A stretch of DNA of 60,120 nt from an uncultured Sphingomonas sp. (GTDB lineage: Bacteria > Pseudomonadota > Alphaproteobacteria > Sphingomonadales > Sphingomonadaceae): the NCBI RefSeq assembly GCF_937871615.1, contig NZ_CALMPA010000041.1, forward strand, positions 1 to 60,120. The letters are read 5' to 3'. The position numbers were made by a program, and so were the translations under genes. How positions within the stretch are numbered: the first letter of the stretch is position 1; each line of letters opens with the position of its first letter. The notes under the pieces were generated by a model that saw only the letters and a program-made list of their open reading frames with translations, was not told the DNA's origin and made no database searches. This document shows, piece by piece, positions 5,706-40,130 of the stretch.

Positions 5706-6309
5706 GCTGGTCGGTTACATGCGCGTGTCGAGCAGCGATGAGCGCCAATCGGTCGATCTGCAACGCGATGCACTGATCGCTGCTGGCGTCGATGACCGGC
5801 ATCTTCATCAGGACAAGGCCTCGGGCGCGCGCGATGACCGGCCGGGACTCAAAGCATGCATGGCCGATCTGCGTGTCGGCGACACGCTGATCGTCTGGAA
5901 GCTCGACCGTCTCGGACGATCGCTGTCGCATCTGGTCCGCATCATCGAGGACCTGAAACAGCGTGGCGTCGCCCTCCGCTCGCTGACCGAGGCGATCGAC
6001 ACGGCAAGCGTTCACGGCAATTTTCTGTTCAACCTCTTTGGAACGCTCGCCGAATATGAGCGGGCGCTGATCACGGAACGGGTCAACGCCGGGCTTGCTG
6101 CGGCACGCAGGCGGGGGCGCAAGGGCGGCAGGCCGCCCACGATCGGTGCGGAAAAGGTCGAGCAGATCCTGGCCGCCCTCGAGGGCGGGGCCAGCAAAGC
6201 TTCGGTGTGCCGCAGCTTCCAGGTGCCGCGATCGACTTTGATTGATATGCTGAAACGGACCGGGTGGGTTGGCGCTGGCGCGGCCGGCAAGCCGGTCAAC
6301 GCCGCATAG
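5704..6309 (+). CDS. tnpR: Tn3-family resolvase (serine recombinase)
   Basis: Site-specific serine recombinase that resolves transposition cointegrates at res. The protein is 201 aa from the ATG. The N-terminal catalytic domain has MLVGYMRVSSSDERQSVDLQ with the nucleophilic serine in the RVSSSDERQ segment. The helix NLFGTLAEYERALITERV and the hinge GRKGGRPP precede a C-terminal helix-turn-helix (SKASVCRSFQVPRSTLIDML). An in-frame TTG at 5695 is possible, but the ATG at 5704 fits the family N-terminus. tnpA follows after 15 bp in the same direction, so the two are probably co-transcribed. Confidence 0.92.
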   Translation: MLVGYMRVSSSDERQSVDLQRDALIAAGVDDRHLHQDKASGARDDRPGLKACMADLRVGDTLIVWKLDRLGRSLSHLVRIIEDLKQRGVALRSLTEAIDTASVHGNFLFNLFGTLAEYERALITERVNAGLAAARRRGRKGGRPPTIGAEKVEQILAALEGGASKASVCRSFQVPRSTLIDMLKRTGWVGAGAAGKPVNAA

Positions 6310-15370: not shown

Positions 15371-15661
15371 TTGGCTACCAGTTACCGGCATTACAACGTC
15401 CGCCTGGAGCGCGCCCAATGGGACCGCCTCAGCGTGATCGCCACCGAACAGAAATTGAGCGTCGCCGACGTCATCCGATCGGCCCTCAATGTCTTCCTTT
15501 CATCCTCCGACGTGCTGACCGCGAGCCAGCGCCGTCTGGCCCGGATCAGCGAGTTCCAGCAGCTCGTGCTCGACGTCATTCTGCGCGAGCAATATCCCGA
15601 GCTGCGCGACCGCCTCGTTGCCGAAACCGACAAGCGCCTGGTGCAATATCATGGCGCGTGA
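15371..15661 (+). CDS. Ribbon-helix-helix-like protein, probable relaxosome accessory factor/autoregulator
   Basis: Small DNA-binding protein, 96 aa from a TTG start. This TTG is chosen because AGGAGG lies 6 bases upstream; another TTG at 15365 touches the Shine-Dalgarno. The N-terminus SYRHYNVRLERAQWDRLSVI followed by KLSVADVIRSALNVFL fits a beta strand plus two helices of the RHH fold. The C-terminal half is helical and of unknown role. Its last 11 bases overlap the traD start, so it is coupled to the coupling protein. By analogy with TraY or TrwA it may bind oriT and its own promoter, both candidates for which lie just upstream. Confidence 0.75.
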   Translation: MATSYRHYNVRLERAQWDRLSVIATEQKLSVADVIRSALNVFLSSSDVLTASQRRLARISEFQQLVLDVILREQYPELRDRLVAETDKRLVQYHGA

Positions 15662-17945
15662 GGACATCCGCTCGAACGGGAAAAACATCCCGCTGACCCA
15701 CCACTCCGCGCGCGGCCGCGTGCAGCGAAACTCGGGCAATTTCACCCGCGGCTCGCAGCTTCTCACCCACGAGATGCTGATGTGGTTTTCGGGCGCGCGG
15801 CTGCCCATCATGGTCTGGTTCTTCGCCTTCCTCGCGGCCTGGTTCATCATCCTCTCGATCCGCCTCGACGAGCATGGTTTCCAGCTCGTCTGCATGAAGG
15901 TCTATTCGGCGCTCTGGAACTGGGTCGACCTCAATCCCAACAAGCGCGTCAACGTCACCCTGCCCAATGGCGAGATCTACAAAACGGTCATGCCCGTGGT
16001 GCCCTATATCCCGGCCGTGCAGCAGGCCTGGGAGACCACGATCCGGGCGCTGATCGGCTCGATCCTCGTCTCGGTTTTCGTGGTCGCGCCGCTTACCATC
16101 TGGTTCGTCGACATCTCGCGCAGGCGCGGGCGTTCGATCCTTCAGGAACGCCACGAGCGCGGCGCCATGCTGGTCGATCGCGCCGTGCTGGTCTCCGAAA
16201 TCGCGCAGCACAACGCTGAGAAATTCGAGGAGGACGCGCGCCAGTTCTTCCCCGGCCGCTCGCCCGCCGCCGTGCTCAGACTGCCGTTCGTGACACGGAA
16301 GGCGGGCGGCATCCACCATCCCTATACGCTCGCCGGCATCCCCTATCCGCACCGCCTCGAGCAGTCCCATTCCATGCTGATCGGCACCACCGGCGCGGGC
16401 AAGACCACCGAGCTCAGGAGCCTGGTCAGCCAGATGCGCCAGCGCCAGGACAGCGCCGTGATCTTCGATCTCACCGGCGCCTATGTCGAAGCCTTCTACG
16501 ATCCCATGCGCGACACGATCCTGAACCCGATGGATCAGCGCTGCCCCGCCTGGTCGATCTTCAACGACTGCTCGACCTACAGCCATTTCACGTCGGCCGC
16601 CGCGGCGCTCATTCCCTCCGATGGCGGCTCGTCCGAACCCTTCTGGGCGCTCGCGGCCCGCACCTTGTTCATCGAGATGTGCGTCCGGCTTCAGGAGCGG
16701 GGACAGACCACCAATCTCGCGCTCGCCGAGAACCTGATGACCGCCGATTTGAAGCGGGTGCATCGCTTCCTCGCGAACACCATTGCCGACCCGCTGACCG
16801 CACCTGAAGCGGCCCGCATGGCGGAATCGATCCGGGCGGTCTTCAACACCAACGCGCAGGTCCTGCGCTTCCTGCCCGACGAAGGCGAGCCGTTCTCGAT
16901 CCGGCACTGGATGACCACCGAGCGCGCACCCGGTTCGATCCTGTTCGTCACCTCCGATTACGACGACCTGGAGATGAACCGGCCGCTGCTGACGCTCTGG
17001 ATGAACATCGCCATCACCAGCCTCATGACCCTGCCGCGCACGCGCAGCTTGCGGACCTGGTTCATGTTCGACGAGGTCGGCGCGCTGCACCGCCTGCCGG
17101 CGATCGAGAAGGGCCTTCAGACCGCGCGCAACTTCGGCGGCGCGATGATCCTGGGGCTCCACAGCTTCCAGAAGCTGGTCGAGGTCTATGGCGAGGAGGG
17201 CGCGCGAAATCTCGCCTCGCTCGCCCGCTCGAAGCTCATCCTCGCAACCAGCGAGTTCAAGACCGCCGAGGAATGCTCGCAATATATCGGCAACCGCGAA
17301 GTGCGGCAGATGGATGAGGCCTATAGCTACGGCTATAACAACAACCGCGACGCCTCGACCCTGACCCCGCGCAAGCAGGTCGAGCCTCTCGTGATCCCCG
17401 ACGACATCACCAACCTGCCCTCGATGCACGGCTTCGTGAAATTCCCCGACGGCTTCCCGGCCGCGCGCATCCTGCTCGAATGGAAGGACTACCCGATCGT
17501 CGCGCCGGGCTTCCTGAAGCGCCCCGTGATGCAGCCGGTTCGGTCCAGGCGCGGGGAGGAGATTTTCGAGGAGGAGGGCAGTGAGGCCGGCGGCAGGGAC
17601 GGCGCCGTCCAGATCGTGGATGAAGTGGTCGAGCCGACCAATCTCGCCAAGGAAATGGCGGCGCGGATTCTGCAGTCGCCGAGCGAGGGCCAGGTCGCCG
17701 AAACCGGTCGTATCGCCCCGCGTAGCGAAGACCGGCCGGTGCCCCCTCAGGCGAAGGGGTCAGGCGGTGGAAAGGAGGACGGCGCGCGCGGCCGGGACGC
17801 CCAGCAGGAGGCCGGCCAGCGGCCCGCCGACGACCGGCGCGGACCGTCACCGCAGGCGCCGCAGGTCGAGGATCAGACCATCATCGAACTGCGTCAGGGC
17901 TTCGCCGCGGGCCGTGACCAGGACGATCTCGACATGGGGATCTGA
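15651..17945 (+). CDS. traD: Type IV coupling protein TraD
   Basis: Hexameric inner-membrane ATPase that brings the relaxosome to the secretion channel. The protein is 764 aa from ATG 15651. Two N-terminal membrane segments lie at about residues 45-65 and 135-160. Walker A GTTGAGKTT is near residue 244 and the Walker B region WFMFDEVGALHRLP near 469. The C-terminus is long, charged and proline/glycine-rich, as in F-type TraD, and probably contacts TraI. It overlaps the RHH gene at its start and is followed after 3 bp by traI. Confidence 0.94.
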   Translation: MAREDIRSNGKNIPLTHHSARGRVQRNSGNFTRGSQLLTHEMLMWFSGARLPIMVWFFAFLAAWFIILSIRLDEHGFQLVCMKVYSALWNWVDLNPNKRVNVTLPNGEIYKTVMPVVPYIPAVQQAWETTIRALIGSILVSVFVVAPLTIWFVDISRRRGRSILQERHERGAMLVDRAVLVSEIAQHNAEKFEEDARQFFPGRSPAAVLRLPFVTRKAGGIHHPYTLAGIPYPHRLEQSHSMLIGTTGAGKTTELRSLVSQMRQRQDSAVIFDLTGAYVEAFYDPMRDTILNPMDQRCPAWSIFNDCSTYSHFTSAAAALIPSDGGSSEPFWALAARTLFIEMCVRLQERGQTTNLALAENLMTADLKRVHRFLANTIADPLTAPEAARMAESIRAVFNTNAQVLRFLPDEGEPFSIRHWMTTERAPGSILFVTSDYDDLEMNRPLLTLWMNIAITSLMTLPRTRSLRTWFMFDEVGALHRLPAIEKGLQTARNFGGAMILGLHSFQKLVEVYGEEGARNLASLARSKLILATSEFKTAEECSQYIGNREVRQMDEAYSYGYNNNRDASTLTPRKQVEPLVIPDDITNLPSMHGFVKFPDGFPAARILLEWKDYPIVAPGFLKRPVMQPVRSRRGEEIFEEEGSEAGGRDGAVQIVDEVVEPTNLAKEMAARILQSPSEGQVAETGRIAPRSEDRPVPPQAKGSGGGKEDGARGRDAQQEAGQRPADDRRGPSPQAPQVEDQTIIELRQGFAAGRDQDDLDMGI

Positions 17946-17948
17946 TCC

Positions 17949-20900
17949 ATGCTCTCGGTCGCCGCCGTCCGCTCCGCATCAGGCGCCGCGAACTATTTCG
18001 CGAAGGACGATTTCAAGGACAATTACTACACGGCGGATGGCTCGTCCGAGGTCAGCGCCTGGGGCGGGGCAGGGGCCGACGCCCTCGCACTCGATGGCGA
18101 AGTCAGTCGCGAAAGTTTCGAGCAGATTCTGGGCGGCGTCCTGCCGAGCGGGGAGGGCGTCGCCCAGGTCGAAAACCGGCGCAACGGTGTCGATCTCACC
18201 TTCTCGGCGCCGAAGTCCGTATCGGTCATGGCTTATGTCGCCGGCGACAAGCGGGTGCTCGCCGCCAACATGGCCGCGGTCCAGAAAACCATGGCGTGGG
18301 TCGAGAAGAATCTCGCCGAAGGGCGCAAGGACGTTGAGGGCCGCAAGGTGCCGGTGCCGACCGGCAAGCTCGTCTATGCGCTGTTCCAGCACGACACCAG
18401 CCGGGCGCTCGATCCGCAGGCCCATGTCCACTCTGTCATCGGCAATCTGACCCAGATGCCCGACGGCAAATGGCAGGCCCTCCACGCCGACAAGATCTGG
18501 TCGAACAACGCGGTCATCGGGGCAATTTACCACGCCTACCTGCGCGCCGGATTGGAGAAGCTCGGCTACCAGGTCGAGCTCAAGGGCAAGCACGGCACAT
18601 TCGAGATCATGGGTGTGCCCAAGGCGATCATCGATGCCTTCAGCCAGCGGCGCGAGGCGATCCTCGAGAAGGCGGCCGAACTCGGCATCGTCTCGGCCAA
18701 GGGGCGCGACGGCGTGACCACCACCACCCGCGATCCCAAGCTCAATGTCGAGGACCGCGACGGGCTCCAGAAAGGCTGGATCGACAAGGCGGCGGAGCTC
18801 GGGTTCGACGGCAAGGGACTGCTCGCCTCGGCGCTGGCCCGGGCAGGGCAGGGCGCAGCCGACAACAAGCTGGAGCGGGGCTTCCGGGCGGTCACCGACG
18901 CGATCGCTGGTGCGCGGGATCTCATCGGCGGCTTTCTGCGCTCGCCCGATCCGCTGATCGACAGCGGCCTTGCCCGTGCCACCAAATCGCCGGCCGTCGC
19001 CCGGACGCAATTGGCGGTGGCCTCGGCCGTCCGCATCCTCGCCGAGCGCGAGGCGGCATTCGACGTCAACAAGCTCTCCAAGACCGCGCTGGATCTTGGT
19101 CTGAAGGGCGTCACCATCGAGACGGTCGAGCATCGGATCGAGCAGCTCTACGATAACCGTCAGCTGATCCCCGGCGTCGCCCGTGCCGGGGACAAGGGCG
19201 TCGAGATGGTGACCACTCAGGAGGCGCTTCGCACTGAGGAGGCGATCCTCAAGGCGGTCGATGCGGGCGTGGGCAGGGCGACGCCGATACTTCCCGCGCA
19301 GGATGCGCCCGCCCGCCTGCAGGAGGCCGCCGATCGCCCGCTCAATGCCGGCCAGCTTGCTGCCGCGACCCTGATCCTCTCCTCTGAAGATCGGACCGTG
19401 ACGGTCCAGGGCGTCGCCGGCGCCGGCAAGTCGACCATGTTGCAGGCGGTCGCCCGGATCGCGGATGCCGAAGGCAAGGATGTTCTGGGGCTCGCCTTCC
19501 AGAACAAGATGGTCGCCGACCTCGCCGAAGGGGCCGGGATCAAGAGCCAGACGATCGCCTCGTTCGTGCTGGCCAATGAGCGCTACCTGACCGAGCGCGA
19601 TACGCCGCGCTACGAGGAGGCGCGCGATCGGCTCGGTGGCGCGATGCTGGTGGTGGACGAGACCTCGATGGTCTCCAGCGCCGACATGCTGAAGCTCCAC
19701 AGCATCGTCGAGGCGCTCGGCATCGACAAGCTCGTGCTGGTCGGCGATCGCCAGCAGCTCTCCTCGATCGACGCCGGCAAGTCCTTCGCGATGATCCAGG
19801 CCGCCGGCGGCACCATGGCCCGGATGGACGAGAATATCCGCCAGCGAACCGACACCCTGCGCACCGTCGCCGCACTCGCCAATGTCGGCAAGGCGGGCGA
19901 GGCGATGAAGGTGCTGGGCGATAACGTCCACGAAAGCGCGAACCCGCCCGAAGAGGCCGCCGACAAGTGGCTCGCGCTGGGGGCGGACGACCGCGGGGCG
20001 ACCCAGGTGTTTGCCTCCGGCCGGGAGTCCCGCGCCATCATCAACCAGCGCATTCAGGACGGCCTTGCCGCCGAAGGCACTGTGCGGGGCGAGGGCATCC
20101 ACCTCATCGTCTACGACCGGGTGAACCTGACCCGTGAGGAGTTGCGCTACGCGGCCAGCTATCGGCCCGGCCTCACCCTCGATGTCGGCCGCGGCGGCGC
20201 GCAGGACGTCGGGCTCGCGCAAGGACGCTATGACGTCTCCAGGGTGCTGCCCTCGGGCAAGGTCGAACTGGTCGATGGGCGCCGCAAGATCCGTTTCGAT
20301 CCGCAGCGCCTCTCGCCGACGGAGAAGCGGGACCGCCTCGAACTCACGGAGAAGAAGGATCTGCATATCCGCGAGGGCGACCGCATCCGCTGGACCGCGA
20401 ACGACAAGCCCCGCGACCTGCACAATGCCGCGCTTGCCCGCATTATCTCGGCCGACGCCTCGGGCATCACCGTCGAAACGGCGGGTAATCAGACCCTGAC
20501 ATTGGCGCCCGGTGATCCGATGCTCTCACGCCTGGACCTCGCCTACGCGCTCAACATGCACATGGCGCAGGGCATCACCACCGACAAGGCGATCACGGTC
20601 ATGGACAGCCATGAGCGCAATCTGTCGAACCAGCGCCTGTTCAATGTCGGCGTGACGCGCGTGCGCGACGAACTCACCATGATCGTCGACGATAAGGAAA
20701 AGCTCGAACGCCAGCTCGACCACAATGCCGGCAACAAGACCTCGGCCCTGGAGACGGTCGGCCGTCTCGATATCGACGGCAGGAAGGGCGGCGCCAAGCC
20801 GGTGAAATTCGATCCCGGTCCGATCGACGGGATCAACCTCGCGGATCAGCCGGACATCCTCGCCGATCTTCCCCCCATTCCGGATGGGCCGCTCGAGCCC

Positions 20901-21008
20901 GCAGCTCCGATCAAGGGCGACGGCCTCAAGGCACCCCCGGACCTCAAGCCCGAAAAGGCCGACCTGCTGCCGCCGCTTCCCGAGCGCAGCCTGGGCCTTG
21001 ACCTTTGA
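17949..21008 (+). CDS. traI: MobF-family relaxase-helicase TraI
   Basis: Nicks oriT, stays attached to the 5' end and unwinds the transferred strand. The protein is 1019 aa, shorter than F TraI and close to TrwC. The relaxase domain begins MLSVAAVRSASGAANYFAKD with tyrosines at NYYTADG (about residues 26-27). The metal-binding histidines sit in PQAHVHSVIGN (about 157-166). The helicase domain has Walker A GVAGAGKST (about 490) and VVDETSMVSS (about 565), with later RecD-like motifs (ALNMHMAQGITTDKAITVMD). The proline-rich C-terminus may be an interaction tail. It follows traD after 3 bp. The gene is intact, unlike the second relaxase relic at 4062-5549. Confidence 0.95.
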   Translation: MLSVAAVRSASGAANYFAKDDFKDNYYTADGSSEVSAWGGAGADALALDGEVSRESFEQILGGVLPSGEGVAQVENRRNGVDLTFSAPKSVSVMAYVAGDKRVLAANMAAVQKTMAWVEKNLAEGRKDVEGRKVPVPTGKLVYALFQHDTSRALDPQAHVHSVIGNLTQMPDGKWQALHADKIWSNNAVIGAIYHAYLRAGLEKLGYQVELKGKHGTFEIMGVPKAIIDAFSQRREAILEKAAELGIVSAKGRDGVTTTTRDPKLNVEDRDGLQKGWIDKAAELGFDGKGLLASALARAGQGAADNKLERGFRAVTDAIAGARDLIGGFLRSPDPLIDSGLARATKSPAVARTQLAVASAVRILAEREAAFDVNKLSKTALDLGLKGVTIETVEHRIEQLYDNRQLIPGVARAGDKGVEMVTTQEALRTEEAILKAVDAGVGRATPILPAQDAPARLQEAADRPLNAGQLAAATLILSSEDRTVTVQGVAGAGKSTMLQAVARIADAEGKDVLGLAFQNKMVADLAEGAGIKSQTIASFVLANERYLTERDTPRYEEARDRLGGAMLVVDETSMVSSADMLKLHSIVEALGIDKLVLVGDRQQLSSIDAGKSFAMIQAAGGTMARMDENIRQRTDTLRTVAALANVGKAGEAMKVLGDNVHESANPPEEAADKWLALGADDRGATQVFASGRESRAIINQRIQDGLAAEGTVRGEGIHLIVYDRVNLTREELRYAASYRPGLTLDVGRGGAQDVGLAQGRYDVSRVLPSGKVELVDGRRKIRFDPQRLSPTEKRDRLELTEKKDLHIREGDRIRWTANDKPRDLHNAALARIISADASGITVETAGNQTLTLAPGDPMLSRLDLAYALNMHMAQGITTDKAITVMDSHERNLSNQRLFNVGVTRVRDELTMIVDDKEKLERQLDHNAGNKTSALETVGRLDIDGRKGGAKPVKFDPGPIDGINLADQPDILADLPPIPDGPLEPAAPIKGDGLKAPPDLKPEKADLLPPLPERSLGLDL

Positions 21009-23775: not shown

Positions 23776-25411
23776 CCGGGCCCGCGCGGTGGAGCTCAAG
23801 CCCCCGTCACCGGAAGAGGGAGATGCCGGTCTTCAGGCGTTCCGTGAGGCAGCAAAGCTCCACGAGGATACGTTGCGCAGCCGGATGTCCCGCGAATTCT
23901 ATCGAAAGGATCTGGCAAAATGGCAGAAGCTCTATGCGACGCTCGCCGGCAAACGCGCGGCAGGCACGGCAGCGGCCGTTCATTTCACTCGGCTATCGGT
24001 GCTCTGCGGTGAGCTGCTGACAGAATATGGTCCGGAGGGGCCGCCCAAGAAGCGGTCGCCCAAGGCGATGACGCCAGTGCCGTTGACCTATCCTGACTTC
24101 CCCGACGACATCACCCACCGCATTCACTTCCTCGAAGGGCCGGGGATCCGACGGCAGCGCGCCGTTGAGCTTTCGGCCCATGCCCCCGGCATTTCGAGGC
24201 AGACCTCGGCGCGCGGCCGCGTCCTTCTTTCGGTCGGGGTTCGTCAAGATCAGGTCCGCCTGTTCGAGCGCATCGTCGAAGCCATCGGCGATCTCGCCAT
24301 CGCTGATTACGCCGCCGCAGGTTTCGACATCGGCTATGTGATGCGACCCGAAGGGATCGCCCAAGGTCAATCCTGGACGGCCAATCCCCTCGATCCAGCG
24401 CTGCCGATTGCCCGTGTGTGGGAGGATAATCAGCGGGCCCGGGGTTACGGGTTGCAGGCGCGCCTGCTTGGCGATCAATGGCGCGGTGCTGACGGGACCG
24501 GCCTCCCAGCCGACCTACCCGATTTAGATGGCGGACCTTGGGACCCTGATCCGCATTGGCAGCGCGTTCTTGAATTCACGGAAGCTGACCGCCTCGATGA
24601 GGCGCTCGCGCTGGTCGATGCGGTGCCCGGTCGCGATCGTGAGCCCCTGTTCGACGAAGTTATCTATCTCAGGTTCCTGACAGGATCGCGGCTGCGCGCG
24701 CAGGATGTCCGCGTGCTGGCGCGCAAACATGCGGAATCGTCGCTCATTGCGGGGCGACTGCTTGAGGAATTCGAGGCCTTTCTAGGCGATCTTGATGCGC
24801 AATTTGCGCTGGAGCCGCCTGTCCTGGAGGAACTGATCAGGCTTCGGCCGGATTTCGGGTCGACCATGATACCGCCCATGCCGCCCGCTTCGGATTGGGC
24901 TGCCTATCGGCGCCATATGGCGCAGTTCACGAACCATGGTGCGCGGCGCGGCCGGATCTTCTCCATCAACATCGGCGCCGCCGATACCGGGGCATCGGCG
25001 TTCTTTGCGACCGCCATGGTCGCTGCCGAAGAGGCATTCCGCCGCGCGCGGTCGATTCCCGAGATCGGACGGGGCTGGGTGTCCGAGGTGGCGCTTCTCG
25101 ATCTGGTTCGCACCCTATGGCCCTCCGCGGTCCATCAATGGCGCCCGGCGTTCCTCGGCATGCAATCGGTCGATATCCATGTGCCGGAACTGGGCCTCGC
25201 CATCGAGTATCAAGGGCAGCAGCACTACGCGCCCGTGACGCTCTTCGGCGGCGAAGAGGGGCTCAAGCTCACCCAATTGCGTGACGAGAAAAAGCGCACG
25301 CTGCTGGCTCGCCACGGTGTGCGGCTCCTTGAATGGCGCTTCGATGTTCCGATCACCAGGGCAGAGCTGATCGCTCAGATGGCCGCCATGGACATCCCGA
25401 TCCCGGACTAG
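23753..25411 (+). CDS. Hypothetical protein with C-terminal PD-(D/E)XK-like nuclease domain
   Basis: 552 aa from ATG 23753; this start gives MARPRSADRARAVELKPPSP and a 23-bp overlap with the TIR-like gene. The first 400 residues are unrecognised and include several short helical stretches. The C-terminal 120 residues contain QSVDIHVPELGLAIEYQGQQ, then H-Y, then LTQLRDEKKRTLLARHGVRL. An acidic residue, a strand with Glu, and a following Gln-rich turn match a Vsr or restriction-endonuclease-like core. Together with the TIR-like partner it may form a two-gene defence module. It ends convergently, 4 bp into the next gene on the other strand. Confidence 0.72.
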   Translation: MARPRSADRARAVELKPPSPEEGDAGLQAFREAAKLHEDTLRSRMSREFYRKDLAKWQKLYATLAGKRAAGTAAAVHFTRLSVLCGELLTEYGPEGPPKKRSPKAMTPVPLTYPDFPDDITHRIHFLEGPGIRRQRAVELSAHAPGISRQTSARGRVLLSVGVRQDQVRLFERIVEAIGDLAIADYAAAGFDIGYVMRPEGIAQGQSWTANPLDPALPIARVWEDNQRARGYGLQARLLGDQWRGADGTGLPADLPDLDGGPWDPDPHWQRVLEFTEADRLDEALALVDAVPGRDREPLFDEVIYLRFLTGSRLRAQDVRVLARKHAESSLIAGRLLEEFEAFLGDLDAQFALEPPVLEELIRLRPDFGSTMIPPMPPASDWAAYRRHMAQFTNHGARRGRIFSINIGAADTGASAFFATAMVAAEEAFRRARSIPEIGRGWVSEVALLDLVRTLWPSAVHQWRPAFLGMQSVDIHVPELGLAIEYQGQQHYAPVTLFGGEEGLKLTQLRDEKKRTLLARHGVRLLEWRFDVPITRAELIAQMAAMDIPIPD

Positions 25412-25929
25412 ACGGCAAGCCTCTTCTGCCTCGGGCCGCCGTTTATTTCCTCGACGATGAACGTGCGGGCCGGCGGTGTTTCGAGAAGGTCGATCTTTGG
25501 GAGCAGGTGGTCGAGCCATTGCATGCGTTGCCGGCGCAGGATGATCGCACCGTGTCGATCCTGGTAGTGGCTGACTTCGGGGTTGGCTGCGACGGTGATG
25601 AAGCGGAAGGACAGGGGCCACTCGGCCATCGCTGGCTCCCAGATCGCCGCGAGATAGAAGAAATTGCCGTCCTCGAGCCGCACTCGATACTGCTTGCCGC
25701 CGCTTACGGTCATATGGAATTCCGACGCGGGCACCAGACAGCGCTGGCTGGGGAAGGTCTGGCCCTCCGCGCGCACGAAGCGGAAGGAGGCGCCGCCGCT
25801 GAAGCGTGGATTGGAGCCCCACCGGGCCTCGACCATTTCCATTTCTTACATATCGTCCGGATTTCGCCGGATGATGGGCAAGAGCTTCTCGAGGGGGGCC
25901 TCGGAGTCGAACGGTGTTGGCGTCGCCAT
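25408..25929 (-). pseudogene. SRAP-family protein lacking the catalytic cysteine, interrupted by an in-frame stop
   Basis: SRAP (HMCES/YedK) proteins shield abasic sites in single-stranded DNA by a covalent link through Cys2. From ATG 25929 the frame reads 27 codons (MATPTPFDSEAPLEKLLPII and on to NPDDM), hits TAA at 25846-25848, and resumes in the same frame at ATG 25842 for 144 aa: VEARWGSNPRFSGG, CLVPASEFHM, AAIWEPAMAEWPLSFRFITV, RHGAIILRR. No Cys2 is present. Either it is a pseudogene, or translation restarts 3 bases after the stop. It is divergent from an intact SRAP gene, and a LexA box lies 5 bp upstream of the ATG. Confidence 0.7.
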
Positions 25930-25934
25930 GGCAA

Positions 25935-25949
25935 GAACATATATAGAAC
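25935..25949. promoter_or_regulatory. LexA (SOS) box between two divergent SRAP genes
   Basis: GAAC-ATATATA-GAAC, which on the minus strand is GTTC-N7-GTTC, the alphaproteobacterial LexA operator. It lies 37 bp upstream of the plus-strand SRAP start and 5 bp upstream of the minus-strand one, so it may control both. Confidence 0.8.
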
Positions 25950-25986
25950 GATGATGAATCGCAAGGACCAGTGGAACGGATGACCG

Positions 25987-26604
25987 ATGTGCAATGATTA
26001 TCGCCTGGAGGTCGATATCGCCTCGATCGTTGAGGATTTCGACGACCTCAAGATCAAGATCAAAATGCCCGAAGGGACGCCCAATGTCGCGGCCCGCGCG
26101 GACATCAACATCAGCGACATCGCGCCGATCGTGCGCAGTGGCGAGGGCAGGGGATCGGGCGAGCTCGTCAATCGGCGATGGAGCTGGCCCGGCCAGAATG
26201 GGCGGCCGGTCTATAATTTCCGCTCCGAGGGCCGCGAGTTCACTTCGCACCGCTGCCTCATTCCGGCCGACGGTTTCTACGAATTCACGGCGCCGCTCGA
26301 GCCGGGCCAGAAGCGCAAGACAAAATGGCTGTTCACGATGAAGGACCATCCCTGGTTCTGCATCGCCGGCATCTGGCGATCGCATCCGGAGATCGGCGAA
26401 GCATTCACCATGCTGACGATGGAACCCGGCGAGGATGTCGCGCCCTATCATTCCCGTCAGATCATCCCGCTACCGCGCGACCGGTGGGCCGACTGGCTTG
26501 ATCCCTCAGTGCCAGCAGAGGAGGTGCTTGGCCTCCTGCCGAAGGGCAGCCTCCTGCCGCTGCAGGTCTATCCACCGGCCGCGGCGCAAGCGTCGCTGCT
26601 TTGA
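25987..26604 (+). CDS. SOS response-associated peptidase (SRAP) family protein
   Basis: Abasic-site processing protein, 205 aa. It opens Met-Cys (MCNDYRLEVDIASI), giving the Cys2 nucleophile after Met removal. Other active-site residues visible are Asn in RPVYNFRSEG, Glu in ADGFYEF and His in APYHSRQ. By analogy with YedK and HMCES it forms a thiazolidine crosslink with abasic sites in single-stranded DNA and has autoproteolytic activity for Met removal. A LexA box 37 bp upstream predicts induction on DNA damage or on entry of single-stranded DNA. Its divergent partner lacks the cysteine. Confidence 0.92.
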   Translation: MCNDYRLEVDIASIVEDFDDLKIKIKMPEGTPNVAARADINISDIAPIVRSGEGRGSGELVNRRWSWPGQNGRPVYNFRSEGREFTSHRCLIPADGFYEFTAPLEPGQKRKTKWLFTMKDHPWFCIAGIWRSHPEIGEAFTMLTMEPGEDVAPYHSRQIIPLPRDRWADWLDPSVPAEEVLGLLPKGSLLPLQVYPPAAAQASLL

Positions 26605-27437: not shown

Positions 27438-28352
27438 TCACGAGACCTTCTCCCGGAGCCAGGACGACAGCCCTGCGTCGAGGACCATCCGCGCGAGGCG
27501 CTGAGGCCCGAGCAGAATCACTCCTTCAGGGCCTTCATTCTCGGGAATGTTGCCGGTGTGCCATACGAAGAACATGCGATCATAGGCCTCCGCCTCGGCC
27601 AGCCGGCCGACATAGTCGTCGAGGGATGCCCGCGTGGCCTGAGATTTCACCTGCACGAAGGCGCGTTCGGCGGTGCTTGGAAGCATGAGTTCGAGGTCGA
27701 TCGTCTTCTGGGTCCGACCGACCTGACTGAGCCGGCGCCATCCGCTGCTCGAGAAGACCAGATCCACCAGCAGTTCGAAATCCTGCCAGGTCAGCAGCCG
27801 CATCAAGGGGATGATCGCCGCGGTGAGGGCGCGTTCTGCCTCTTCCGCGGCTGCAACTTCCAGGGATAGTTCATCGCCCAGTCGGCGCAGCAGATAGTCT
27901 GCCGCGCGAACGTCGCAGATCGTCCCGCGAAACATCTGGACCTTGAGCAATCGTCCGGACAGCCGGTCGGCCGTCAGCAAGCTGCCGCCGATCGACGTGC
28001 TGTGCCAGCCATCTAAGGTCGCGCGGCGGTGGCTGTTGTCCGACAGGATCTCGATCTCGCCTACCGGCCGACACCAATAGAGCAGGCCGCCGACGAAGGT
28101 GATGAAAATGGTATCCTCGTCGCTCTCGTAGAATGCCCGGATTTGCTTCACATCGCGGGTGGCAGCGCCGGCGTCCCCGCGACGCTCCTTCATCGCTTCC
28201 CAGACGCCCGACCAGTCGCCCGCCACGCAAAGGTCGTGCGGCACTTCGCGATAGCCGAAGCGCAGAACGCCATCGCGGATGCTCTCGGCCTCCCAATCGC
28301 CGCCCCGGCCCAGCTTGATGTAAAAGACATTCGCCGCCGTAACTGCGGTCAT
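27438..28352 (-). CDS. Mrr-like restriction endonuclease domain protein
   Basis: 304 aa from ATG 28352, chosen because GGGGGA lies 5 bases upstream; an open frame extends 16 codons further. The N-terminal 190 residues are unrecognised. The C-terminal domain fits the Mrr/PD-(D/E)XK pattern: LTWQDFELLVDLVFSSSGWR, then a strand TIDLELML with Asp, then RAFVQVKSQA, where Gln-x-Lys replaces Glu-x-Lys as in Mrr proteins, and a final helix ASLDDYVGRL. Mrr enzymes cut modified or foreign DNA, so a defence role is plausible. Confidence 0.8.
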   Translation of the reverse strand: MTAVTAANVFYIKLGRGGDWEAESIRDGVLRFGYREVPHDLCVAGDWSGVWEAMKERRGDAGAATRDVKQIRAFYESDEDTIFITFVGGLLYWCRPVGEIEILSDNSHRRATLDGWHSTSIGGSLLTADRLSGRLLKVQMFRGTICDVRAADYLLRRLGDELSLEVAAAEEAERALTAAIIPLMRLLTWQDFELLVDLVFSSSGWRRLSQVGRTQKTIDLELMLPSTAERAFVQVKSQATRASLDDYVGRLAEAEAYDRMFFVWHTGNIPENEGPEGVILLGPQRLARMVLDAGLSSWLREKVS

Positions 28353-28480
28353 GGAATCCCCCGTTGCCTGCAGGGCAATTCCGATCAGCCCGCCCCGCAT
28401 CGCAAGCTATACCTTCATCGTAGAAAAGATATTGAAGAGCTTGCCCCGATCAGACGGAGGGCAGCAAATCAGGGGGGCAA

Positions 28481-29017
28481 ATGACTAAGGCAGACAGCAA
28501 CGCGCATCGCAAGAAATCGTCAAAGCCCTACAACGAGCGCACAGATCTCGAAAAATTGCAGTCACAATGGACCAAATTATCCGGCCTACACCTTCGAGAA
28601 GAGCCATCTGCGGCGATCGTCCGTTGCGCGACGGCAGCGGAGATCGCGGCCAACTATGCCATTCGGACGGAATGGGCCCGCAAGACCGAATTCGATGACA
28701 CCATCATCGACATGTTCTTGCGCTGGGCGAACGGCCTACCGCTCAAGGTAACCCGTCTGTTCGTGCCGGTCTATTTTGCGACCCCGGACGAGAGCCAGAT
28801 CGGCAAGGCGCTCAAGGCATCGGCTGAGAAGATCAACACAGTGCGCAACGCGGTGGTACACCAAGGAGCCTTCAGCAATCCCGAAGAGGCGGAAGCCGTG
28901 ATCGCCGAGGCGAAGAGCTTCATCAACACAATCGTCGGCCTGTCGATCGAGAATTTCGATATCGAGGCTGCGGCGCAGGAATGGCAGGCGTCCCGCAAGA
29001 GCGAGGAGGCCGAATGA
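28481..29017 (+). CDS. HEPN-motif hypothetical protein
   Basis: 178 aa, mostly helical. A C-terminal segment KINTVRNAVVHQGAFSN contains Arg-x4-His (RNAVVH), the signature of HEPN ribonuclease or nucleic-acid-binding domains. A strong ribosome site (AGGGGGG) precedes the ATG. The last 4 bases overlap the start of the next gene (ATGA), so they are translationally coupled. HEPN proteins commonly act in abortive infection and toxin systems. The role is inferred; no antitoxin is recognised. Confidence 0.75.
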   Translation: MTKADSNAHRKKSSKPYNERTDLEKLQSQWTKLSGLHLREEPSAAIVRCATAAEIAANYAIRTEWARKTEFDDTIIDMFLRWANGLPLKVTRLFVPVYFATPDESQIGKALKASAEKINTVRNAVVHQGAFSNPEEAEAVIAEAKSFINTIVGLSIENFDIEAAAQEWQASRKSEEAE

Positions 29018-34609: not shown

Positions 34610-37600
34610 TCAGCGGAAATCACGCGAACGGACCCTTATGCCGGGATCAGGCGGTGGCGTCAGCGATCTGCGATCCCACGATACCAGATCGCGAGGATCG
34701 CACCGCAGCGGATGTTTGGCCACGTCAGCGCGACTAACCCGGTAGATATCGGCGACATCCGTGCGTGTGCCAACGCTGGCGAGGAGCGGCGACAAATCAT
34801 CGAGCCGCTGGGCGACCACATGGATCACCTCGCCCTCGCGCTGAACCTGGCCTCGCACGCCCATCATCGACGCACCCAGGACGGCGCGCCGATGCTTCTC
34901 GAACACGTTGGTCCATACCACCAGGTTGGCGACGTTCGTTTCGTCCTCCAGCGTGATGAACATGACGCCCTTGGCGGAGCCCGGCTTCTGTCTGACCAGC
35001 ACGATCCCCGCAAGATTGATCCAGCGGCCGTCTTTCATGGACTGCAGCTCATCGCAGGTGATCATCTTGCGATTGCGCAATTCGTCGCGCAGGAACGCCA
35101 GCGGATGAGCCCGCAGCGACAGGCCAGAGGCCCGATAATCCTCGACCACTTCCGCGCCGGCGCCCATCGGCGCAAGGATGACCGTCGGCTCAATCGCTTC
35201 CTGGCGTAGCTTGCCTTCACGTTCGTCCGCCGCAGCGAACAAGGGCAATGCTGCATTGCCGAGCCCCTTAACGCTCCACAGTCCCTCACGCCGATTGTTC
35301 CCCAATGAGCCGAACCCATCGGCTTCGCCGATCCGATCCAGAGCGCCGCGCCCCACGCCGGCACGCCGCTGGATTTCCTCGACGCTCTCATAGTGTTGAT
35401 CGGCGCGCGCCGTGACGATCGCCGCGGCATCGCGGTTGGCGAGCTCATTCACCATGCGAAGGCCCAGCCGAACGGCGAGATAGCGGCCGCCCGTTGGCTC
35501 AAGGGTGCAATCCCAGCGGCTGTGATTGACGTCGATCGGGCGGATCTCGACGCCATGCTGACGCGCGTCGCGGACGATTTGGGCCGGGGCATAAAAGCCC
35601 ATGGGCTGGGCATTTAGCAGCGCGGCGCAAAACACATCTGGATGATGGCATTTCACCCAACTGCTGGCGTAGGCGATCAGCGCAAAGCTCGCGGCGTGGC
35701 TTTCCGGGAAACCATAGGAGCCGAAGCCCTCGATCTGTTTGAAGGTGCGCTCCGCGAATTCCTGATCGTATCCGCGCGCGACCATGCCATCGATCAGCTT
35801 GTCCCGAAAATGTGAGACGCCGCCTGTCAGCTTGAACGTCGCCATCGCCCGCCGAAGCAGATCCGCTTCGCTCGGTGTGAAGCCAGCGCATTCGATCGCC
35901 ACGCGCATCGCCTGCTCCTGAAACAGCGGCACCCCCAAGGTCTTCTCGAGTACGCGCCGCAGTTCCTCGGTCGGATAGGTGACGGCCTCCTCGCCGTTGC
36001 GCCGGCGACGATAAGGGTGGACCATATCGCCTTGGATCGGCCCGGGGCGCACGATCGCCACCTGAATGACCAGATCATAGAAGGTGCGCGGCGCCATTAA
36101 CGGAATGGACGCCATCTGTGCGCGGCTCTCGATCTGGAAGACACCCAAGGTATCGGCCTTGCGGATCATCGCGTAGGTCGCCGGATCCTCGGCGGGGATG
36201 GTCGCGAGATCGAGCTTCAGGCCCTTGTCATTCTCCATGAACTCGAACGCCCGCCGCATGCACGACAACATGCCCAGCGCCAGGACATCGACCTTCATGA
36301 AGCCCAGGAGATCGATATCGTCTTTGTCCCATTCGATCACCTGTCGATCTTCCATCGCAGCCGGCTCGATGGGCACCAGTTCGTCGAGCCGATCGCGTGT
36401 CAGCACGAATCCGCCAGGATGCTGCGACAAATGGCGCGGCGTATTGATGAGCTGACGGGCCAATTCCAGGGTCAGCACCAGGCGCCGGTCGGCGAGGTCC
36501 AGATTGAGCTCTTCCGCGTGTTTTTCCTCGACGCCATCCTGGCTCCATCCCCAGACGGACCCGGCCAGACCCGCCGTCATGTCCTCGCTCAGGCCCAATG
36601 CTTTGCCGACTTCGCGGACCGCGCCCCGCGCGCGATAGCGGGTCACGACCGCCGTTAGCGCCGAGTGCGTGCGGCCATAGGTCTCATAAATCCACTGGAT
36701 CACTTCCTCTCGGCGCTCATGCTCGAAATCGACGTCGATATCGGGCGGCTCGCGCCGCTCGGCCGACACGAAACGCTCGAACAGCAATTCCGAGCGCACC
36801 GGATCGATAGAGGTGATGCCCAGCACGTAGCAAACGGCACTGTTTGCGGCCGAGCCGCGCCCCTGACAGATAATCTCGCGCCGCCGCGCCTCGGTCACGA
36901 TGGAATGGACGGTCAGGAAATAGGGCGCATACTCAAGGTCAGCGATGAGCTTCAACTCGTGGATCAGTTGCGAGCGCACCTTGCCGTCGACCCCGTCGGG
37001 ATAGCGGTCGGGGGCTTTCGCCCAGGTCAGCCGCTCCAGCTCTTCCTGCGGCGTCCGGCCGGGCACATTGATCTCATCCGGATATTGGTAGCGGAGCTCA
37101 TCGAGGCTGAATCGGCACCGCGCCGCGATCTCGAGCGTGCGAGAAACAGGCGACGCATCCTTGAGATAGCGACGGAACAGCCGCTCCATTTCCTGACCGG
37201 TCTTGAGATGCCGATCGGCGAACCGCTCGCGCCGAGCGCCCAATTCGTCGATCGTGCATTTCTCCCGGATGCAGGTGACGACGTCCTGCAACATGCGGCG
37301 CTCCGGCGCGTGGTAGAGCACGTCATTGGTCGCGACCGTGGGAACGCGAGCTGCAGCCGCCAGGTTCGCGAGATCACGCAGCCGGATCGCATCTTTCGGT
37401 CGCCGCCGGATCGTCAGAGCCAGATAGGCACGGTCGGCGAAAATCCGTTTCGTTCGCGCAAGGGCGGCCTCGGTGCCGACGTCTGCCCGGTCAGGGCTCA
37501 GGATCGCGATCAGCCCGTCATTCCATCGTTCGACATCCGACCAGTCGAGATGACAGGCTCCCTTGCCGCCGCGTTCCTTGCCTATGCTGAGTAGTCGGCA

Positions 37601-37879
37601 CATTCGGCCATAGGCTGCGCGGTCCGTCGGGTAGAGCAGTAGGGCCGTGCCGTCGCTCAGATCGATCCTGCATCCGATGATGGCACGAACGCCGGTGGTT
37701 CGTTCGGCATCCCAGGCCCGGACGATGCCGGCGACCGATCCTCGATCAACGACGCCGAGAGCAGGCAATCCGAGCAATGCGGCCGCGGCGAATAGCTCCT
37801 CAGGGGATGATGCGCCCCTCAGGAAGCTGAAGTGCGTCGTAACCTGCAGCTCGACATAGTTGGCGTCGACCTCGCTCAT
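34610..37879 (-). CDS. dnaE2: Error-prone DNA polymerase DnaE2 (ImuC)
   Basis: Translesion polymerase of the C family that works with ImuA and ImuB in SOS mutagenesis. The protein is 1089 aa, full length for DnaE2. The N-terminal PHP domain starts [20 protein letters not shown]. The catalytic palm has [18 protein letters not shown] (paired Asp, about residues 375-390), and [16 protein letters not shown] carries the third acidic site. It ends with an OB-fold region ([20 protein letters not shown]). The start overlaps the imuB stop by 4 bp. Chromosomal copies are common in alphaproteobacteria; here it sits between transfer modules. Confidence 0.96.
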
Positions 37880-39432
37880 GCGAACGCACCGTGGATGAAC
37901 CAGCGCATGGTGCCCGTAGCCGGATTTACGCCGTCACCGAGCCGGAACAGCCAGTATCGACCGCCTGTCTCGGTCTCGACCTGATAATAATCCCGGACGA
38001 TCAGCGCTTTGTCGGCCTCATTGCCGCTCTCGCGCCACCATTCGCCGTGCAAGCGTTCCGGACCATCGCCTCGGGTCACCCGATAGCGCTTTCGACGCCA
38101 CACGAAGAGGCGAGGGGCATCGTCTGGCAGCAGGGCAACCACGTCGATTGGCTCGGGTCGATCCAACATGCGGGCGGGGCGAGGGAGGTCATCGTCCCAC
38201 TGGGCGCCGCTATCTTTCGCAAGGGCGGGCGTCGCGATGATCGAGCGCTCAGGCATACTGCTCGCGTGCGGCGCCGCGCGATGCAGGCTCCGTGGACCAA
38301 AACGGTTGGCGAGCGCATCGACCAGAGAGGCGAGGTTCGGCCCGCGATGCGGGCTTTCCAACCCTTCGTCCTGTTGGGCCGCGAGCGCGTCAGCCAGCGG
38401 CGTCACGAGGGTCATTGCCTCAATGCCAAGCCCTGGCTCGACCGTCTCGATCTTAGCGCGCAGCAATTTCGCGAGATGGCCTGCGTCGCGGGATGCGGTT
38501 GCGGTCCCGATGCGGATCGCCTGATTGTGGCCGTCCACACGGTGGAAATAGCAATCCAATCGGCGAGCGCCCTTGCCGATACAGGTGAGCTGCCCCACCA
38601 CATCGGCAACGAGATCGCCGATCACCTGGGCGAAGGCTTCAGGTGTCGCGATCGGCTCCATGAAACCTCGACGGGCCCGCGGCAGATGTTCAGGGTAGAT
38701 CGGCTCGATCGGCTCGGGCACGAAGCCGAGCACCTGATCCAGCCGCCGATGCAATTCGCGGCCGAACCGTTTGGCGAGAGGGCCGCGCGGCGCACCGATG
38801 AGCTGTTCGATCCGCTCAAATCCGAGCTTGCGCAAACCTTCGACCTCGCGTCCTGGCAATCGCAACGCTGATATCGGCAGGATGGAAATGGCAGTGCGGT
38901 GTCCGCCCGGCTCGATCGTGACTGGCCGGCCGGCGGGTACATGCCGCGCAACGGCATGGGCGCAGCCTGCGGTGTCGGCCACAGCGATCTGCAGAGCTAG
39001 CCCCGACGCGGCAACACGGCGATGGAGATCCTTGAGCAGCGCCTTCTCGGTGCCAAAGAGACCCGCGCAGCCGGTGATGTCGAGCCAGATTCCGTCGGGC
39101 GCATCCGGTGATACGAAGGGTGAGTATCGGCGGCCCGCCCATAGCGCGAGATCGCGAAGTCCCTGCAGGTCGCCCTCTGGGTCGGCATCGACGACCTGCA
39201 ACTCAGGGGCAAACGCTCGGGCCTTCGTCACGGTCATGCCGACGCGGATACCGAGCGCCTTTGCCTCGGCATCGACGGCAGCAATGACTTTCCTGCCGTG
39301 ATCGGGCACCGCGGTCACCAGCGGAAGATCAAGGACCAGGCCGTCACGGCACTCAGGCGACAATTTTGCGATCTTCCGCCGCAGCCGGTCGGTCGACCAG
39401 TGCGGCAGGAAGAGCGATACGACCCGTCGCAT
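37876..39432 (-). CDS. imuB: ImuB, catalytically inactive Y-family polymerase-like protein
   Basis: Adaptor of the SOS mutasome that binds the sliding clamp, ImuA and DnaE2. The protein is 518 aa from ATG 39432, chosen because GGAGG lies 6 bases upstream and the family starts [20 protein letters not shown]. The Y-family catalytic Asp-x-Asp of the first strand is replaced by FLPHWSTD, as in all ImuB proteins. [20 protein letters not shown] is the usual palm segment. It overlaps imuA by 80 bp and dnaE2 by 4 bp, so the three are coupled. Confidence 0.94.
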
Positions 39433-40084
39433 CGCACGCCTCCACAATCCAGGCGTGCGGATTACCACCGCGCACACGTTCCAAATTCACATGCCAGCGA
39501 GGGCGACCCAGGCTCGGCAGACCGAGATCTTCGCTTGGTGAAGCGGTGATCCGCCAGCGTGTCATCGCTGCCGTCCCTTCGGCGACCTGTTCGGCCTTCG
39601 CCGCGCGACGAAACACGAAGGCCGCTACACCCGAGCTTTCCGCCGCCAATTGCAGGCGCTTCGATGCAGTAGTCGAATATTTCCCGACTTCGCCAACCAC
39701 ACCGGCGATGCCAGGGTGACGCAGGCACTCCTCCATCGCGAGCAGGACATTGGTATCGCTGCCGGCCTCGACATAGATGACCCGATCTGGATGAAGACCG
39801 GCGAGATGAAGGGCAGGGGCAAACAGGTCGCGCCAGCGCAGGCACCAGAAGACGGGACCTTCCATTCGCGCCAGGATTCCCGCCAGAAAGACCGTCGCAC
39901 TCGCCTCGTCTGCGAGATCGGGACTGCCCATCATTTCATGGAGAGCGCCTGCAGCAATGCCTCCGCCCGGCAATCGCTGATCCAGTTCGTCGATGCCGAA
40001 CGGGATCGCTTCGCGCTGAACGCCTACGCCCTCGATACGCGCGATGCGCGCTCGCAAATCTTCAAGGACGGTTGATTGACGCAT
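39353..40084 (-). CDS. imuA: ImuA, RecA-like SOS mutasome protein
   Basis: RecA-fold partner of ImuB and DnaE2. The protein is 243 aa. It has the family start (FGIDELDQRLPGGGIAAGAL) and lacks a Walker A motif, as usual. It is first in the imuA-imuB-dnaE2 operon. A LexA box (40116-40130) lies 31 bp upstream of the ATG, so the operon should be induced by DNA damage. Its 3' end overlaps imuB. Confidence 0.93.
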   Translation of the reverse strand: MRQSTVLEDLRARIARIEGVGVQREAIPFGIDELDQRLPGGGIAAGALHEMMGSPDLADEASATVFLAGILARMEGPVFWCLRWRDLFAPALHLAGLHPDRVIYVEAGSDTNVLLAMEECLRHPGIAGVVGEVGKYSTTASKRLQLAAESSGVAAFVFRRAAKAEQVAEGTAAMTRWRITASPSEDLGLPSLGRPRWHVNLERVRGGNPHAWIVEACDATGRIALPAALVDRPAAAEDRKIVA

Positions 40085-40115: not shown

Positions 40116-40130
40116 GTTCCTTATTTGTTC
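40116..40130. promoter_or_regulatory. LexA (SOS) box upstream of imuA
   Basis: GTTC-CTTATTT-GTTC, a perfect match to the alphaproteobacterial GTTC-N7-GTTC operator, 31 bp before the imuA start. A third GTTC follows at 40133-40136. It lies in the 174-bp region divergent to the gene at 40259. Confidence 0.85.

Follow-up and report, generated by a model that had tools for sequence, protein, structure and literature searches.

A divergent pair of SRAP genes around a LexA-type box in Alphaproteobacteria, one partner lacking the catalytic cysteine

The gene pair and its intergenic region

The window analysed here, a stretch of 60,120 nucleotides from the draft genome (71 contigs) of an uncultured Sphingomonas sp., carries two divergently oriented genes of the SRAP family (Table 1). 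SRAP crosslinkers (human HMCES and E. coli YedK) act on single-stranded DNA, where they cap abasic sites in a self-reversing manner, and their cysteine is taken as the family hallmark. A preliminary description of this DNA had placed the two genes around a single GTTC-N7-GTTC box on a conjugative element. Both statements were borne out: Pfam SRAP was matched on both strands, with an exact box in between, and TraG_N and TraH were found (Pfam) besides the relaxase and the coupling protein listed in Table 1. An imuA-imuB-dnaE2 cassette lies about 8 kb from the pair.

The plus-strand protein contains the full catalytic set ascribed to it, Cys2, Asn77, Glu99 and His155, all invariant across 10 aligned sequences including its own. 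The minus-strand partner had been correctly described as devoid of Cys2 and of the usual N-terminus, and its frame is indeed interrupted by a TAA at codon 28, three bases ahead of a usable ATG. A stop at this codon was seen in none of the other copies examined; the window copy is therefore a damaged representative of a conserved family. Apart from the stop, 17 synonymous codon changes and 5 amino-acid changes separate it from its nearest relatives. The nonsense codon that cuts the window copy may be recent. The same genome carries a second, intact pair on another contig, beside alkB-, xth- and ligD-like genes, which may compensate.

Table 1. Features of the window that bear on the SRAP gene pair
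Feature	Position	Strand	Basis
TraD-type coupling protein, conjugative element	15618..17945	+	Pfam TrwB_AAD_bind, 541 bits
MobF/TrwC relaxase-helicase, conjugative element	17949..21008	+	Pfam TrwC, 272 bits
Cys-less SRAP paralogue, full frame from ATG 25929, with TAA 25846-25848 (codon 28)	25408..25929	-	
144-aa ORF downstream of the TAA; ATG 25840-25842, three bases past the stop	25408..25842	-	Pfam SRAP, 46 bits
LexA-type box GAAC-N7-GAAC (GTTC-N7-GTTC on the - strand), GAACATATATAGAAC	25935..25949	.	exact motif match
Sigma70-type promoter motif of the Cys-less gene: TTGCGA 25959-25964, 17 bases, TATGTT 25936-25941 (within the box)	25936..25964	-	conserved in relatives
Active-type SRAP (YedK/HMCES kind), 205 aa, MCNDYR start	25987..26604	+	Pfam SRAP, 78.4 bits
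dnaE2 (error-prone DNA polymerase)	34610..37879	-	Pfam DNA_pol3_alpha and others; relative annotated 'error-prone DNA polymerase'
imuB	37876..39477	-	Pfam IMS, DUF6504
imuA	39353..40084	-	similarity to annotated ImuA genes; no Pfam match at E 0.01
Second LexA-type box, a short distance upstream of imuA	40116..40130	-	motif match

GTTC-N7-GTTC, which we take to be the LexA box of the alphaproteobacterial class, occurs four times in the window (shuffle mean 1.52; at least four in 6 of 100 shuffles), a count that is unremarkable on its own. Genome-wide, 115 matches were obtained versus 40 with a reversed control pattern. The weight of the box comes not from its count but from its conservation, an exact copy lying between both genes in 75 of the 82 related loci, and from its presence in the source genome, where two copies closely precede lexA and the motif also lies upstream of recA. 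As a sequence motif, the LexA-type box stands, and its position ahead of lexA and recA supports this identity. A promoter motif TTGnnn-N17-TATGTT (TTG-N20-TATGTT) faces the Cys-less gene in 61 of 62 distinct regions, at a control rate of 7%, and an in-frame start codon follows 5-8 bases past the box in all 75 exact-box loci (3-12 bases searched). A start further upstream, considered as the source of the partner N-terminus, was rejected because box and promoter motif end at this distance from the in-frame start. Since TATGTT sits in the box and the start codon (25929 in the window) follows closely, transcription from the putative start would probably yield a leaderless mRNA. The pair would be under one LexA (SOS) switch, LexA presumably acting at the box and DNA damage presumably inducing the genes.

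The same divergent arrangement, sought in relatives, was present in 76 of 82 related loci; genome loci were the best 80 of 188, found by RCL[VIM][PA]ASEF and a second motif. The script recorded no active gene in six loci (L046, L049-L051, L080, L090), and an exact box before the partner is readable by eye in L046, L080 and L090. The active gene is present in L126, with a box of one mismatch only. In a survey of the family, 26 of 29 loci, counting that of the window, combined a divergent active gene with an exact box; the other three are a truncated copy (L182), a weak match of 36% (L186) and a locus with active gene and box, the box coming from a search of the same genome (L185). Five weaker class-level loci comprised one with both features, one with the active gene only and three with neither.

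Residues, predicted fold and distribution of the cysteine-less partner

Elsewhere the partner has an open N-terminus: intact orthologues measure 164-184 aa, and the nearest ones 172-173 aa. Residues were compared between 91 intact partners (82 distinct proteins) and 89 active SRAPs (79 distinct), near-copies counted; the 91 exclude the copies of the window and of S. herbicidovorans as well as the truncated loci L049-L051. Canonical SRAPs entered this alignment from the 9 of 21 loci that gave a usable protein. Cys2 and the catalytic Asn77 are found in none of the partners and in all 89 active SRAPs. Glu99 is likewise missing from all partners (M 61, I 13, V 7, H 5, L 4, F 1) and occurs in 88/89 active SRAPs, while His155, present in 88/89 active SRAPs, is retained in five partners, all rhizobial, and replaced by Gln in the other 86. 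The positions of Asn77, Glu99 and His155 are in neither search motif. An intact minus-strand gene with the cysteine was looked for among the relatives; with Cys2 at 0/91, the Cys-less state is old and not the outcome of decay. Partners keep Arg79 (90/91), Arg157 (91/91) and Trp65 (91/91), the two arginines presumably being the putative DNA-phosphate arginines of YedK, and Arg21 is invariant among them. Several lost residues have conserved substitutes: Phe77 (93%), Ser95 (98%), Glu96 (97%) and Gln155 (95%), the conservation of Ser95-Glu96 being due in part to the search motif RCL[VIM][PA]ASEF. A replacement nucleophile at the N-terminus was also considered and rejected, since no residue is conserved at position 2 (D 23, S 14, G 12, A 10, E 10, N 7, T 7, Q 4, K 2 and M 2 in the 91 partners).

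The partner family scores 46-52 bits against the SRAP profile PF02586 (cut-off 27.1). A PDB sequence search with one partner gave no match at E <= 1, five proteins (three partners, two active) had no match in NCBIfam, and neither SRAP protein was matched by PADLOC at E 0.01. An AlphaFold model of the partner, with active SRAPs among the alignment rows, reached a pLDDT of 88.5 and a pTM of 0.85; every one of the 21 PDB structures that it matches at E <= 0.001 is an SRAP structure, DNA-bound YedK and HMCES among them, and a strand is predicted at residues 16-23. The active SRAP rows may bias the fold of this confident model towards active SRAPs. A model from a partner-only alignment was weaker (pLDDT 66.6). 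By homology and predicted fold the partner is an SRAP protein, which has apparently lost the capping chemistry and seems to keep its grip on DNA.

By sequence comparison, the Cys-less genes are a distinct SRAP clade under purifying selection in Sphingomonadales and Rhizobiales. In a quick, unrooted tree of 57 partner and 52 active rows (clustered at 90% identity), partners and active proteins are each set apart by a branch (SH-aLRT 99 and 97). The median dN/dS is 0.29 for partners and 0.20 for active genes (1079 pairs), with values above 0.5 in 42/1079 partner pairs. Partner and active distances correlate across 86 loci (r 0.745; 0/999 permutations as high). Among 397 genomes of the family, the partner was found in 27, one weak match included, the active gene in 61 and both in 25 (Fisher p 9e-21, kinship ignored). 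With the thresholds used, 36 of the 61 genomes have the active SRAP alone, and the active gene therefore does not need the partner. A class-wide draw of 385 genomes gave four matches above 150 bits in three genomes, two of them from the window's own genome; beyond its home groups the partner is thus uncommon. A pair with a box between its genes lies on pSymA of Sinorhizobium meliloti 1021, a convenient laboratory bacterium. Further broken partners were found on S. herbicidovorans pMSHV and, as a truncated copy, in three assemblies. Two relatives sit in viral contigs. A phage origin was tried and rejected: tblastn of one partner protein against 50,697 phage records gave no match at E 1e-5.

Gene neighbourhood and possible roles of the pair

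Among 95 loci, ImuA was found near the pair in 67, ImuB in 66 and DnaE2 in 65. MobF, the sole relaxase kind searched, was found in 14. An AlkB-like gene is present in 35 loci and missing from 60, the five rhizobial plasmid loci being among those that lack it; in 29 of 31 loci checked, using hand-copied positions, it lies on the same strand as the partner, the two starts being no more than about 1 kb apart.

We propose, with moderate confidence, that the pair around the LexA-type box combines a crosslinking SRAP of YedK/HMCES chemistry with a dedicated non-catalytic 'pseudo-SRAP' that would aid SOS repair. Catalytic loss, arginine retention, selection and co-inheritance of the partner, with a conserved box and promoter motif, are evident at the level of the sequences; that the partner may bind DNA, contact the active SRAP and affect crosslinking is what we infer from them. 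Upon DNA damage, LexA would leave the box and the Cys-less gene would be transcribed from the box-overlapping promoter as a leaderless mRNA; the active SRAP, in many loci together with DUF1810-imuA-imuB-dnaE2, would be expressed in the opposite direction. The active SRAP would crosslink abasic sites within single-stranded gaps, and the pseudo-SRAP would bind the same kind of DNA non-covalently. It might then limit, place or hand over the active SRAP at the gaps, with ImuB/DnaE2 filling and AlkB cleaning. More tentatively, the alphaproteobacterial pseudo-SRAP, its pocket rebuilt with conserved Phe, Glu and Gln, could read damage in single-stranded DNA without bonding to it, and in this way control or complement the crosslinking of abasic sites within the ImuAB-DnaE2 mutasome. 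The cysteine-less partner could also be a decoy or a regulator, as the preliminary description suggested.

It is rather doubtful that the Cys-less SRAP is instead a separate reader or enzyme, whose rebuilt pocket (Phe77, Ser95-Glu96, Gln155) would serve, for example, alkylated or other non-abasic lesions of single-stranded DNA and deliver AlkB. The replacement residues are conserved, the AlkB-like gene is often close to the partner, and SRAP and alkB appear together as induced in the consulted portion of a Sphingopyxis granuli study (PMC6472365). Against this stand the loci without AlkB, the rhizobial plasmids among them, the retained Arg/Trp set, which is that of the abasic-DNA fold, and the partial dependence of Ser95-Glu96 conservation on the search motif. 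The preliminary description had suggested an SOS-induced abasic-site shield for incoming conjugative DNA. Single-stranded DNA is the SRAP substrate, in the window and on several plasmids mobF lies within a few kb of the pair, and of 157 plasmid records that encode a partner-like protein, 101 are typed as conjugative, a bare proportion without a baseline. However, a shield specific to conjugation is not favoured, because ImuA lies near the pair in 67 of 95 loci and MobF, the relaxase kind searched, in 14; moreover, the second pair of the same genome has a repair-gene setting, and the main text of a leading-region paper (PMC11541004) contains no SRAP, YedK, HMCES, DUF159 or abasic wording. We regard it as improbable.

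Least credible of all is that the Cys-less gene is a relic throughout. The term, used in the preliminary description, draws support from the window copy, cut by its TAA, and from a few other broken copies, but it fails for the family, where pseudogene status was ruled out by 91 intact relatives, the median dN/dS and the conserved promoter motif, as well as by the conserved box and a single group spanning two orders; even the window copy shows an excess of synonymous over amino-acid changes. The TAA itself is unlikely to be a sequencing or assembly error, or to be bypassed through a restart of translation at the ATG that follows after three bases. The draft state of the assembly, the intact and constrained remainder of the frame and the closeness of stop and start would agree with this, but a re-initiated product would be devoid of residues 1-29, including the invariant Arg21 and the predicted strand at 16-23.

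If the pseudo-SRAP is indeed such a non-covalent reader, the SOS neighbourhood would hold inactive paralogues of RecA, a Y-family polymerase and SRAP. The Cys-less clade, accompanied by an active copy in 25 of 27 family genomes, would be a natural separation-of-function partner, and the pair would make testable how SOS crosslinking is limited or passed to error-prone polymerases.

Comparison with known systems

In the open-access main texts searched, we found no biochemical or genetic account of a Cys-less SRAP. In the consulted portions of the 2013 SRAP paper (Aravind et al., PMC3765255), the cysteine is described as absolutely conserved and always residue 2, two conserved arginines are predicted to contact DNA, and no mention is made of a paralogue without the cysteine or of SRAP genes in a divergent pair. 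For YedK, the consulted part of PMC9436759 reports Cys2 and Glu105 as essential, H160Q as ten times slower, most lyase activity gone in C2A/E105Q and a minor effect of Asn75. Like other members of PF02586 (formerly DUF159), partner and active protein score as SRAP, and two arginines and one tryptophan are retained; unlike them, the partner lacks about 35 N-terminal residues including Cys2, as well as Asn and Glu, and in 86/91 cases His.

In Sphingopyxis granuli TFA, an 'SRAP domain containing protein and alkB' are up 8-10 fold together with lexA, recA and imuABdnaE2 (PMC6472365, portion consulted). The condition was anoxia and not a direct DNA-damage test. As in our loci, SRAP and alkB (SGRAN_3204-3205) are numbered beside imuABdnaE2; the consulted text, however, is silent on a missing SRAP cysteine, and the induced SRAP would be the Cys-less one because of the gene order in the Sphingopyxis loci of this analysis.

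SRAP genes beside imuA-imuB-dnaE2 or dinB were described by Aravind et al. (PMC3765255, in the portion consulted), and the same neighbourhoods are seen here. The mutasome proteins ImuA (RecA-like) and ImuB (Y-polymerase-like) of that account resemble the present case in being catalytically dead relatives within one SOS cassette; unlike ImuA and ImuB, the dead protein here is related to the abasic-site crosslinker.

The SRAP pair and its setting in the window

The genome that carries the window comprises 3.99 Mb in 71 contigs, the window being contig C41. An F-type conjugative element was recognized here (TrwC/MobF relaxase, TraD-type coupling protein, TraG_N, TraH), together with an imuA-imuB-dnaE2 cassette that has a LexA-type box of its own. 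The divergent SRAP pair is located between the relaxase and this cassette, and its preliminary description was confirmed in gene content, interrupted minus-strand frame and box.

Features of the divergent SRAP pair in the window
Feature	Position	Strand	Remarks
Active SRAP	25987-26604	+	complete SRAP protein
Partner frame	start 25929, end 25408	-	SRAP-like, without Cys2; TAA at codon 28, ATG three bases past the TAA
LexA-type box	25935-25949		

Using blastn, the pair matched 141 plasmid records, 11 of which contain 80% or more of it at a single location. The three nearest, from Rhizorhabdus dicambivorans, Sphingobium amiense and Sphingobium sp. CFD-2, cover it entirely at 96.8%, and their partner genes are complete and identical; that of R. 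dicambivorans is intact, encodes 173 aa and uses the same start codon as the window's. Compared with the two nearest relatives that were read, the partner in the window differs at 23 codons, of which 17 are synonymous, five change the amino acid and one is the stop; in the active gene, 12 of 13 differing codons are synonymous. By these counts, the break is recent, or an assembly error. A second pair, with an intact partner and a box between the genes, was found on contig 6 of the same genome, with alkB-, xth- and ligD-like genes beyond, named by their similarity to annotated genes of the related loci L040, L039 and L038. A scan of genome contigs yielded 188 relatives; we retained the best 80. 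Viral contigs yielded two.

Broken partners also occur elsewhere. In S. herbicidovorans pMSHV the partner is split in the annotation. In three assemblies (L049-L051) a deletion has removed the active gene, the first 26 residues of the partner and the genes up to dnaE2, joining residue 27 to about 1.5 kb of other DNA, by inspection an insertion sequence. Genome G770 has the same partner end, as does locus L182, where the active gene is missing.

Several further observations were made. Weak PADLOC matches (NERD, CARF_PDDEXK, Csx1; PDC-S02) at 32188-34341 (-) and 27438-28400 (-) of the window, together with an Mrr_cat match slightly below its own cut-off, suggest possible nuclease cargo, and these may be defence genes of the conjugative element. 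Two overlapping ORFs lie at 28481-30417 (+); the second matches in position a gene on R. dicambivorans p2 (L036) with the annotation HEPN-domain protein, and a Pfam search with this ORF gave no match. That near-identical plasmid carries an inserted TniQ/TniB/Mu-type transposase/TnsA module (L036:3820-8456), the window being uninterrupted at about 22040. Records titled Microbacterium and Nostoc (L050, L120, L121) are yet typical sphingomonad loci, probably through contamination. In L046, a Novosphingobium MAG, the start of the active SRAP contains a tandem duplication (about 5700-6000), either real or an assembly artefact.

Residues, fold and selection of the Cys-less partner

We aligned 91 intact partners with 89 active proteins and nine canonical SRAPs. 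Because the partners begin about 35 residues late, Cys2 is absent from all 91. The catalytic Asn is replaced by Phe (85), Val (5) or Leu (1), the Glu by Met (61), Ile (13), Val (7), His (5), Leu (4) or Phe (1), and the His by Gln in 86, the five that keep it all being rhizobial. Among the active proteins, Glu is missing in one and His in one. The partners retain Arg79 (90/91) and Arg157 (91/91), which we take, by comparison with YedK, to hold the DNA phosphates, as well as Trp65 (91/91). Several of their replacements are themselves conserved: Phe77 (93%), Gln155 (95%), and Ser95 (98%) and Glu96 (97%), the latter two partly as a product of the search motif. According to excerpts of a study on YedK (PMC9436759), loss of Cys2 abolishes crosslinking, and additional loss of Glu105 removes most lyase activity. 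By analogy, the partner should neither crosslink nor act as a lyase.

A partner-only alignment gave a moderate structure model (pLDDT 66.6, pTM 0.68), and adding the active rows raised it to pLDDT 88.5 and pTM 0.85. All structure matches at E <= 0.001 were SRAP proteins (14 and 21, respectively), YedK and HMCES with DNA being among those of the second model. By sequence and fold the partner is within the SRAP superfamily, and by the tested residues outside the catalytic SRAP family. Pairwise dN/dS, calculated from the 1079 pairs whose dS fell within 0.15-1.2 for both genes, had medians of 0.29 (partners) and 0.20 (active genes), with 42 partner pairs above 0.5. Judged from its sequence, the partner is a catalytically dead SRAP that has nonetheless been conserved.

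Promoter motif and regulation

An exact GTTC-N7-GTTC box lies between the genes in 75 of 82 loci, and its spacer ends with TAT in 75/75. Apart from the box, only the columns CTTGC are conserved at 80% or more among 62 distinct regions (TTGC 98% each); conservation is expected to be better visible on the partner's side, because the partner was used to find the loci. A spacing of exactly 17 bases between TTGnnn and the following TATGTT occurs in 61/62 regions, versus 7% at control positions. We read TTGnnn-N17-TATGTT as a putative sigma70-type promoter of the Cys-less gene, its -10 element inside the LexA half-site. An in-frame start codon of the partner follows the box after 5 (56 loci), 6 (15), 7 (2) or 8 (2) bases, and the predicted transcript would be leaderless or nearly so. 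In the genome carrying the window, two such boxes immediately precede lexA and one lies upstream of recA.

In excerpts of an anoxia RNA-seq study of Sphingopyxis granuli TFA (PMC6472365), "SRAP domain containing protein and alkB" (genes 3204-3205) and "SRAP domain containing proteins" (2555-2550) are listed at 8-10 fold, imuABdnaE2 (3201-3199) at 11-12 fold and lexA and recA at 6. Several Sphingopyxis loci (e.g., L104-L107) have dnaE2, imuB, imuA, DUF1810 and the active SRAP on one strand, partner and alkB on the other. From this gene order, gene 3204, as named in those excerpts, should be the Cys-less SRAP.

Neighbourhood, co-occurrence and descent

A shield for incoming conjugative DNA had been proposed, tying the pair to conjugation. 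Near the pair, among 95 loci, we counted ImuA in 67, ImuB in 66, DnaE2 in 65, DUF1810 in 55, AlkB in 35, MobF in 14, LigD in 13, Xth in 10 and DinB in 7, all lower bounds from mostly 6 kb on each side, some cut at contig ends, with MobF the sole relaxase kind covered. The pair belongs more to the SOS mutasome neighbourhood than to transfer genes, and a shield specific to conjugation is not favoured (ImuA 67/95 versus MobF 14/95). Counting against this reading, of the 157 plasmid records in which a partner-like protein occurs, 101 are typed as conjugative, a proportion that has no baseline. The DUF1810 gene is near the pair in L038, L040, L058 and other loci; where read (L038, L040), it lies between the active SRAP and imuA.

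Among 397 genomes of the family survey, 27 have the partner, 61 the active gene and 25 both, and the two partner-only genomes contain a truncated copy and a weak match. Thus, the partner seems to require the active gene, not the reverse. Amino-acid distances of partner and active protein correlate (r 0.745, 0/999 permutations, 86 loci). The tree, a quick unrooted one with 118 rows, sets all partners apart by one branch (SH-aLRT 99) and the active proteins by another (SH-aLRT 97). As both groups contain rhizobial and sphingomonad members, divergence of the two genes probably preceded the spread of the pair, by descent or transfer, over both orders. For how the pair likely works, we infer everything beyond homology, selection and the promoter motif. 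Partner and active SRAP may be likened to a pseudoenzyme paired with its own enzyme.
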